Of a stretch of DNA of 47,899 nucleotides, positions 32,819-34,762 are shown piece by piece. The notes under the pieces were generated by a model, which saw only the letters and a program-made list of their open reading frames with translations, did no database searches and had not been told where the DNA came from. The stretch is from Candidatus Altimarinota bacterium. Lineage in GTDB: Bacteria > Patescibacteriota > Gracilibacteria > BD1-5 > UBA6164. Position 1 is the first letter of the stretch, and every line of letters begins with the position of its first letter. The stretch covers positions 1-47,899 of the forward strand of contig SAAG01000004.1 in assembly GCA_010119095.1 (NCBI GenBank), given 5' to 3'. The position numbers were made by a program, and so were the translations under genes.

Positions 32819-32926
32819 GTTTTAAGTAAATTAAGGGCATTTATTGTAATATAATTACTTCTTATAAAATATATAAAATAATTTGCATTTTAAACGGATT
32901 TTCATATACTTTCTTAGCACATAAAT

Positions 32927-32956
32927 TTGTGCAAATTTTTTGTATGGAGATATAAT
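32927..32956 (+). promoter_or_regulatory. Promoter of the tRNA-His region
   Basis: TATAAT at 32951-32956, only 6 bases before the tRNA-like sequence at 32963, with TTGTGC at 32927-32932 and an 18-base spacer. The -35 overlaps a small palindrome (GCACA ... TGTGC, 32917-32932). Transcription would begin at or just before the degenerate tRNA copy. Confidence 0.5.
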
Positions 32957-32962
32957 ATATAT

Positions 32963-33025
32963 GGTGCTCGTAGTTCAGTAGGGCAGAATGCTAGGGTTGT
33001 GTACTCTGGAGGTCCCTACAGAGCC
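32963..33025 (+). pseudogene. Degenerate tRNA-His-like copy
   Basis: The first 17 bases (GGTGCTCGTAGTTCAGT) equal those of the intact tRNA-His at 33061, and ACTCTGGAGGTC after the anticodon region also matches, but the anticodon stem is disrupted (CTAGG...TCTGG with extra bases) and the T arm and CCA end are missing. Instead, the 3' end CTACAGAGCC can pair with the 5' end, so it may fold into a compact RNA of its own. Confidence 0.7.
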
Positions 33026-33060
33026 AAAACAAAAACAAAAAAAAGTTAATTAAAATATAT

Positions 33061-33138
33061 GGTGCTCGTAGTTCAGTTGGTTAGAATGCCAGATTGTGAC
33101 TCTGGAGGTCGAGGGTTCGAGCCCCTTCGAGCACCCCA
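33061..33138 (+). tRNA. tRNA-His (GTG anticodon)
   Basis: Complete cloverleaf: acceptor stem GTGCTCG/CGAGCAC with the extra 5' G opposite C73 that is diagnostic for tRNA-His, D arm, anticodon stem CCAGA/TCTGG with loop TTGTGAC, T arm with TTCGAGC, and a genome-encoded CCA. Confidence 0.95.
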
Positions 33139-33196
33139 TTAAATAAAATAAAAAAAACAGAAAAAGGAAAGTACAAAAGTAAAATATAAAATAATA

Positions 33197-33352
33197 GGGC
33201 GAGAAAGGAGGGTAGTCAAGAGCACACTGTTTGAAAAACAGGAAGCGATTGACCAAAATCTACCAAAGTAGATTTTGCCGGATGGCCTACTTGAGATACT
33301 ATCCCGAGAAACGGGATTGTAGCGAAAGAGCCGAGCCCCTTCGAGCACCCCA
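33197..33352 (+). ncRNA. GC-rich structured stretch ending in a tRNA-His 3' end; possible RNA or integration scar
   Basis: This stretch is much less AT-rich than its surroundings and holds three good hairpins: 33227-33241 (CTGTTT/AAACAG), 33255-33276 (AAAATCTAC/GTAGATTTT, CAAA loop) and 33297-33321 (TAC-T-ATCCCG/CGGGAT-T-GTA, AGAAA loop). Its last 21 bases (33332-33352) repeat exactly the 3' end of tRNA-His including CCA. I do not recognise it as RNase P RNA, tmRNA, SRP RNA or a group I intron. It may be an expressed RNA processed like a tRNA, or the remains of an element that integrated at tRNA-His. Confidence 0.45.
33332..33352. repeat. Duplicated 3' end of tRNA-His (att-like direct repeat)
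   Basis: 21-base exact copy of 33118-33138, from within the T arm through CCA. Such a repeat is what integration at a tRNA gene leaves; only 193 bases lie between the copies. Confidence 0.8.
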
Positions 33353-33359
33353 TAAAAAC

Positions 33360-33475
33360 AAAACCTTTTAAAGGTTTTAAAGTGAAATTTTTCAATAAAA
33401 ATTTTACTTCCTAACTTTTAAAACGAAATTCTCGGTTTCTAAAAGAGCATACAAAAGCCTTGTAAAAAGCTCTGG
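33360..33475 (+). promoter_or_regulatory. Structured leader of rpsA
   Basis: Successive hairpins: 33360-33378 (AAAACCTTT/AAAGGTTTT), 33380-33409 (13-bp stem with one G-T pair, CAAT loop), one near 33416-33445 (CTTTTA...TAAAAG) and one near 33444-33475 (AGAGC/GCTCT with an inner TACAA/TTGTA). The first can terminate the tRNA transcript; the rest may be an autoregulatory leader for ribosomal protein S1, or simply terminators. Confidence 0.45.
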
Positions 33476-33523
33476 CGAGACTTGAAAGAATTTCACTATT
33501 TTATTTTTTTAATTTTAGCCCAT

Positions 33524-34762
33524 ATGGCAAAAGAAAAGAGCTTAACTCTGTTTGAAGAGTTACTAAAAGCATCTCCTGAGATTAAATATCCAAGAGAAGG
33601 TGAAGTTATTACTGGTAGTATTATAAAAATCGAAAAGAAAAATATACTAGTAAATATTAATAATCAATTTACATGATTGGTTATAAATAAAGAACTATGA
33701 AATACAATTGATCTAAATTCATTAAATGAATGAGATATAATAGAAGTAATGGTTTTATGAGATAGTGTTGAAAGATGATTATTGATTTTATCTCTAAAAA
33801 GAGCAAATCAAATCAAAAGTCTTTCAAACTTATGAAAATATTTCAATTCTGGAGAAGTTATCACAGTTAGACCTACTGAAGCTAATAAATGAGGTTTACT
33901 TGTTGATATCGATGGTTTAAAATGATTTATACCAGTTTCTCAATTGACTCCTATACATTATCCAAGAGTAGAAGGTGCTAACCAAGAAAAAATCTTGGCT
34001 CATCTAAATGCACTTGTATGACAAGACTTTAAAGTAAAAGTTATAAATGTAACTGATGAAGGTAAAAAAATTATCTTCTCTGAAAAAGCTGCAATCGAAG
34101 AAAAGAGAGGAAAAGCATTGGAATGATTAAAAGAATGAGATGTAGTAGAATGAGTAGTAAGTTGAATCTTGACTTATTGATTATTTGTTACTTTTGATGG
34201 ATTAGAATGATTAGTTCATGTATCTGAAATTGATCGGTGACATGTAAACAATCCTTCTAAATTTGCTAAAGTTGGACAAAAAGTTAAAGTTAAAATTATT
34301 GGTCTTGATAGTGAAAAAATCTCATTATCTATTAAAAGACTTAGAGAAAATCCTTGGGATGTACTTGCTAAAAAATATAAAGTTGGGGATGTTATCAAAT
34401 CTCAAATTTCTAGAATTTCTCAATTTGGTGCATTTATCGAACTTGATGGATGAATTCAATGACTTATACATCTTTCTGAAATCTCAAATGGTGTTGTTAA
34501 AGATATAAAAGAACACATCAAAGTATGACAAGAAGTAGATGTAAAAATCATCAATTTTGACCCTGCTCAAAAGAGAATTGGTCTTTCTATAAAAGCTTTA
34601 CATGAAGAACCAAATACTGAAGCAAAACCTAAAAAGAAAAAAGAAGAAAAAGTAGAAACTGCTGAAACTGAGGTTAAAGAAGAATCAAAAGAAGAAGTAA
34701 AAACTAAAAAAGCTCCAAAAAAAGAAGAAAAAGTTGAAGTAGCTGAAACTACTGAAGAATAA
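33524..34762 (+). CDS. rpsA: Ribosomal protein S1 (bS1), four S1 domains
   Basis: 412 residues with four S1 RNA-binding domains: about 24-85 (EGEVITGSIIKIEKKNILV), 107-180 (GEVITVRPTEANKGGLLV), 203-270 (EGDVVEGVVSGILTYGLFV) and 287-360 (GDVIKSQISRISQFGAFIE), the last two with the usual LVHVSE and LIHLSE strands. E. coli S1 has six domains; four is common outside Proteobacteria. The tail of about 50 residues is Lys/Glu/Ala-rich. Because the genes in this window lack Shine-Dalgarno sequences, S1 may matter more for start selection here. A structured leader precedes it. Confidence 0.95.

Follow-up and report, generated by a model that had tools for sequence, protein, structure and literature searches.

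A structured RNA element, probably mobile and of the rtT type, inserted in the T loop of a tRNA-His gene in Gracilibacteria

Behind an intact tRNA-His(GUG) gene in the window, by which we mean the whole stretch of 47,899 nucleotides analysed here, the 3′ end of the tRNA is found a second time, which raises the question of what lies between the two copies and how it came to be there. The tRNA itself occupies positions 33062-33138 on the forward strand, as do all of the window features given below, and is preceded by G−1 at 33061 (together 33061-33138); it scored 66.5 bits against the Rfam tRNA model and the ARAGORN call agrees. The window contains CGAGCCCCTTCGAGCACCCCA, the 21 nt of the tRNA-His end with CCA, in exactly two places, 33118 and 33332, and the second occurrence (33332-33352) is found 193 nt after the tRNA end. 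Repeat comparison delimits the left copy, D1, at 33118-33139, from C56 to CCA and one further base, and the right copy, D2, at 33332-33353, an exact tRNA-His C56 to CCA plus a T that runs into the ancestral flank. On these points the sequence-only reading of the locus, which had described an intact tRNA-His and an exact 21-base copy of its end with CCA, was correct. The gene that follows, rpsA (33524-34762), is a neighbour only; it encodes a ribosomal protein S1-like product of 412 amino acids, and its frame opens at 33524 under table 25, with TGA read as glycine.

The interval begins with an A+T-rich spacer of 57 nt (33139-33195); typical spacers of the family have 47-63 or 4-22 nt. This trailer leads from the tRNA to a short arm, AGGGCGAG (33196-33203). 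The arm, recognized by direct reading and by the family-wide arm test described below, pairs with the right copy and had been missed in the earlier reading. It is followed by a conserved junction, AAAGGAGGGT (33204-33213), by a helix P2 with an inner hairpin (33215-33253), by a helix P3 with the strands CAAAATCTAC and GTAGATTTTG (33254-33277) and by a helix P4 (33284-33332), in which GGC at 33284-33286 pairs with GCC at 33330-33332 around a further inner hairpin; the final base of P4 (33332) is also C56 of the right tRNA-His copy. The outer helix, P1, joins arm and copy, GGGCGAG facing CGAGCCC (33332-33338) with five Watson-Crick pairs and two adjacent G·A oppositions. A GC-rich and structured interior had been claimed from the letters alone and was borne out: arm and core together have 46% G+C, against 12% in the spacer and 25% in the whole window, and the interior folds better than shuffled versions of itself (z = −5.4, with 0 of 200 shuffles as good). 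The helices, however, are the four named P1-P4 and not three separate hairpins, as had been proposed. The conserved AAAGGAGG of the elements is Shine-Dalgarno-like.

The arrangement is not confined to tRNA-His. In the same genome, an element behind tRNA-Tyr has a core 88% identical to that behind tRNA-His and finishes with 27 nt that exactly repeat the tRNA-Tyr 3′ end and the bases after it, a third element, of another subtype, lies behind tRNA-Leu(UAG) and a degenerate one behind tRNA-Arg(CCG); these further elements had also escaped the earlier reading. Within the genus, the same plan recurs behind Met, Gln, Val, Asn, Lys and His tRNAs. A covariance search of related genomes, which had been put forward as a check, was made with one model built from short type-2 cores (R1) and another from long type-1 cores (R2); together they matched 25 of the 48 genomes of the family, with up to eight matches per genome, and the survey of these Gracilibacteria comprises at least 72 distinct elements behind 23 kinds of tRNA, some of the surveyed loci being cut by contig ends. 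Downstream 3′ copies were found behind 0 of 45 tRNA genes in three control genomes (G041, G021 and G237), and the tRNA-His arrangement is therefore more than chance. Across the phylum, R1 gave one further weak match among 380 genomes, in a genome (G222) whose Leu and Gly tRNAs are followed by related elements and whose Lys tRNA is followed by a weaker copy. The 17 named contigs on which the type-2 core signature occurs all belong to Candidatus Gracilibacteria MAGs, viral contigs gave no exact match to this signature, and the TTCGAAAGGAGG pattern occurs outside the family at chance level only among the matches listed. Rfam searches of the element loci at gathering and relaxed thresholds returned only tRNAs and chance matches, and nothing on such elements in Gracilibacteria was found in the literature. 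Since the survey rests on models built from one family, other lineages may hold unseen forms.

How the element reached its place can be read from empty sites. At His, Leu, Asn and Met sites of sister species that lack the element, the flank behind the tRNA is the one that stands behind the second copy in the filled genome. The element is a true insertion between T55 and C56 of the T loop, and the sequence duplicated with it runs from C56 of the tRNA through CCA and up to about 59 nt into the trailer; as the tRNA 3′ end is duplicated on insertion, the host tRNA stays complete. The youngest insertion, in a tRNA-Val gene (L173), duplicated 80 nt (21 + 59 nt), the two copies differing at one position, and brought in 87 nt, made up of the 7-nt arm GGATTCG and a core of 80 nt, and across the family the inserted unit of arm plus core measures about 80-140 nt. 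The right joint is fixed at C56 and the left one is variable, with 4-22 or mostly 47-72 nt between CCA and the arm, and in the longer class this stretch often includes a terminator-like hairpin that has a T run. Some orthologous sites have kept arm and spacer but have had their core exchanged (the Gln pair L104/L213 and the Met pair L153/L189), and part of the spread may thus be due to exchange of cores at fixed sites.

A precise right joint next to a variable left one would suit target-primed reverse transcription of a chimeric RNA of tRNA and element, in which the nick would separate position 55 from position 56 and the left end would vary with the 3′ end of the pre-tRNA; the clustering of the CCA-to-arm distances and the terminator-like hairpins of the longer class point the same way. 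Reverse transcriptase genes (Pfam RVT_1), however, go their own way: among the 48 genomes, 12 have both gene and element against 12 expected (odds ratio 1.0, p = 1), and the association that a retroelement RNA should display is not seen. A reverse transcriptase outside the reach of Pfam RVT_1 is possible. On balance, we regard this route as very unlikely.

Elements that integrate into tRNA genes usually have att sites shaped as direct repeats that reach from the T loop to the 3′ terminus of the tRNA, and the repeats of the present element have this shape. The sequence-only reading had raised an att-like integration scar, such as a tyrosine integrase might leave at a tRNA 3′ end; arrival by insertion is upheld by the empty sites, but a decayed integration site is unsupported. 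One type of element with one attachment sequence would be expected of such a scar, whereas the same insert of 80-140 nt lies behind 23 kinds of tRNA with a different, tailor-made repeat in each; moreover, covariation is seen in its stems, even the youngest insertion comprises no more than arm and core, and the element ends were never seen flanking a gene-carrying element. We give very little credence to an integrase remnant.

The elements share one order of parts, namely tRNA, trailer, arm, AA, a purine-rich junction (e.g. AGGAGG), P2, P3, GGAUGGCC with P4, and the tRNA copy from C56. The arm is complementary to positions 54-63 of its own host tRNA, across the insertion point. Over positions 56-63, the arms of 72 elements form 504 of 576 possible pairs with their own tRNAs, against a mean of 432.5 pairs (sd 5.2) with permuted tRNAs, and 0 of 2000 permutations reach the observed fit. 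In 70 of the 72 elements the arm is followed by AA, complementary to T54T55, two bases that are not included in the downstream copy. The tRNA-Arg(CCG) of the window's own genus has G55, and its element has CA, not AA, in two species; as the CA matches G55, the arm mirrors the uninterrupted T loop. This clue to a match with the intact loop is strong but single, because it represents one evolutionary event.

At the other end, the 3′ copy is identical to its own tRNA across all 21 nt in 51 of the 72 elements. Deviations concentrate at positions 69-70, the T part and the CCA end being kept, and three copies have C-to-T changes in their paired part that still allow pairing with the arm as G-U. The identity of copy and tRNA reflects both youth and constraint. 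In several Leu elements from different genera (at L167, L172, L184, L185, L192 and L205), the copy has the deviant end CTCTNGCACCA where the tRNA has CTGGGCACCA; being common to different genera, this tail looks inherited, not decayed.

In having a scaffold and, after it, some 21 nt that equal a genomic target with a constant T54T55 upstream, the element also recalls the guide RNA of a TnpB/Cas12-like nuclease, whose 3′ guide would match tRNA genes beside a TT motif. Yet the supposed guide is sequestered by the arm, and TnpB-like genes are nearly absent from the family, with only sub-cut-off matches in a few element-bearing genomes and the sole clear one in an element-free genome. This reading is mostly refuted, and it is the least credible of those weighed here.

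The helices form a four-helix junction closed by P1, the pairing of arm and 3′ copy, and this fold is kept by compensatory change. The earlier reading had allowed that the stems might prove not to be conserved, but many compensatory changes were seen. In an alignment of 73 distinct sequences, which was fitted to the model and so leans towards it, 91.6% of cells are paired, a share that drops to 40-51% once the 3′ partners are slid; double changes occur in 25 of the 27 pairs, and the observed values are not attained by any shuffle. Covariation was seen in three alignments, two of them smaller than the 73-sequence set; structure predictions on MAFFT alignments agree with the model for type 1, and free prediction on the small type-2 alignment is weak. 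A new small RNA with a tRNA end had also been envisaged at this locus: a conserved, covarying RNA that ends in a tRNA 3′ end is indeed present, but it is one copy of a large RtT-like family and not a lone small RNA.

Conservation of this kind might mean that the RNA serves its host, in which case it would have spread by ordinary duplication and gene conversion, and arm and tail would be under selection for pairing with the RNA's own tRNA or for processing in the manner of that tRNA. Old copies keep the fold and the T-part pairing, the C-to-T changes in three copies remain pairable with the arm as G-U, orthologous sites retain arm and spacer despite a changed core, and RtT RNAs are expressed (PMC4986893). 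On the other hand, occupancy is patchy among sister species and among tRNAs, the empty sites are clean, near-identical cores stand behind unrelated tRNAs, and G041, G021 and G237 have none in 45 tRNAs; a host-serving RNA that spread in this way appears rather unlikely.

The explanation that we favour, and consider probable, is that the structured RNA is a small mobile element of the rtT type, non-autonomous and targeted to tRNA genes. From the fit between arm and tRNA we infer that the insertion is placed by base pairing between the arm and the target's uninterrupted T loop, or else that the arm is copied from this loop during insertion. By analogy with what has been reported for RtT in E. coli, the element would be transcribed with its tRNA, and tRNA-processing enzymes would release an RNA ending in CCA. 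The chemistry of insertion may be supplied by an enzyme acting in trans; Y1 transposase genes have no association with the elements in the genomes of the family. More tentatively, and as a possibility that we hold to be less than even, the element may be a programmable mobile RNA, whose arm of 7-10 nt reads the T loop of the tRNA gene, or of the tRNA, and directs insertion at 55/56; with arms re-made or exchanged, nearly any tRNA gene could be occupied unbroken, and the RtT of E. coli would then be what is left of such an element.

Two kinds of locus were considered as sources of the element and rejected. An 817-bp case behind tRNA-Phe, a candidate autonomous version, has no long open frame and only a decayed type-1 end, and four tRNA-less loci (L196, L199, L201 and L211), candidate parents, have their cores inside another repeat. 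In these four, the stem of the repeat is interrupted by the tRNA-element core, and the arm pairs with sequence just upstream. This family-wide repeat (TTACTTTTGAATCCAAAAGTAA ... TTTAGGGGGAGCAA ... TTGCTCCCCCTAAGACCCC) has many copies in G003 and related ones in G004, and empty copies were seen at L245-L259. A second hairpin-rich repeat, AAGTTTCTCTTG(C/A)GATGA ... GGAAGGAAAGTTA or similar, occurs in L205, L206 and L192 and behind the His copy in L145 and L147; in L205 and L206 it is inserted in the P3 loop of the tRNA element.

Upstream of the tRNA, and outside the inserted element, lies a degenerate copy of the 5′ part of tRNA-His (32963-33025), which had been noted from the outset and is real, with 88% identity over 42 nt. 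The sister species G003 (L092, with at least two tandem units) and G004 (L125) share it, and it is absent from G001 and G002. Its first 17 nt track the acceptor strand of the local tRNA-His (GTGCTCG or GTGCCTG), and the copy is therefore not simply decaying. Mirror-image cases, in which tRNA positions 1-18 are copied 5′ of the tRNA and followed by other hairpin-rich sequence, were observed at L192 (tRNA-Arg UCG), L270 (tRNA-Thr) and L292 (tRNA-Met and tRNA-Asp), and look as if they had arisen by insertion in the D loop.

The att elements of tyrosine integrases likewise insert at the T loop and repeat the tRNA 3′ end at the far side, but the present element has no integrase or other genes, an insert of 80-140 nt and one core for many tRNAs, with a tailored repeat. 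REP/BIME sequences are also small, non-coding, hairpin-rich and multi-copy; the element differs from them by its strict tRNA target, the target duplication, the fitted arm and the lack of association with a Y1 transposase, and RtT-like sequences have been noted in BIMEs (PMC2965389). Group I and II introns resemble it in that a short element sequence (guide or exon-binding sequences) is complementary to the target across the insertion point, but the element is too short for either core and has no Rfam intron match, and the tRNA, with its 3′ end restored, can do without splicing.

The closest known family is the RtT RNA of E. coli (RF00391); the element is built like it and, by analogy, probably works alike. 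Bosl and Kersten reportedly placed E. coli rttR behind tyrT/tyrV in 1991, and a role in the stringent response has been proposed for RtT; to our knowledge, no explanation has hitherto been given for rtT RNA or for the 178-bp repeats that follow tRNA-Tyr in E. coli. E. coli was examined by region, at tyrV and the lysT operon, and not genome-wide. The E. coli units score 133-138 bits against Rfam RtT (RF00391), and the three behind tyrV 134-138 bits. In each of these three, roughly 59 nt of spacer lead to the arm GGGGAAGGAT, which fits the copy; GAGAA and the hairpin CCCGAAGGG come next, and the unit ends with the copied tRNA-Tyr 3′ end, CCA included. RtT-like units with tRNA-Lys 3′ copies stand behind all five tRNA-Lys genes of the lysT operon (E. 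coli K-12 NC_000913 780554-781800, L264), and for these units no feature is annotated in the RefSeq record over that interval; their arm, CGTG(T/A)AGGAT in four of the five, fits tRNA-Lys at 9-10 of 10 positions. Like the elements, RtT sits downstream of a tRNA, has as its 3′ end a copy of the host tRNA 3′ end including CCA, and has an outer helix formed by the 5′ arm and this copy; GAGAA follows the arm as in the window, tandem units occur, and the GAG arm variant of the window element is also present in rttR. The arms of the Tyr and Lys units differ as their tRNAs do, although crossed pairs still match at 7 and 8 of 11, a discrimination that is weak by count alone. Unlike the copy in Gracilibacteria, which starts at position 56 and is found with 23 kinds of tRNA, that of RtT starts at about position 59 and is found with few tRNAs. 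RF00391 had no match at gathering score in the window, nor at relaxed cut-offs in 32900-33530 (E up to 5) and in the 11 element loci searched (E up to 10), and R1 had none in E. coli; as the covariance models fail to match in either direction, the element was not filed as RF00391. Expression of RtT RNAs near tRNA-Asn and tRNA-Lys is known from A. pleuropneumoniae, and release of RtT as a discrete RNA during tRNA processing has been reported in other species (PMC4986893); the literature consulted contains no description of RtT mobility. The lineage of the window shows that RtT-like RNAs arise when an element inserts into the T loop of a tRNA, and that the arm suits the tRNA in each case, a fit also visible in E. 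coli, the Lys operon included, and it offers dozens of copies in many states, from young and old to exchanged, alongside empty sites. Provided that the arm does direct insertion, we would be dealing with a very small mobile element that is guided by RNA and leaves its target gene intact.
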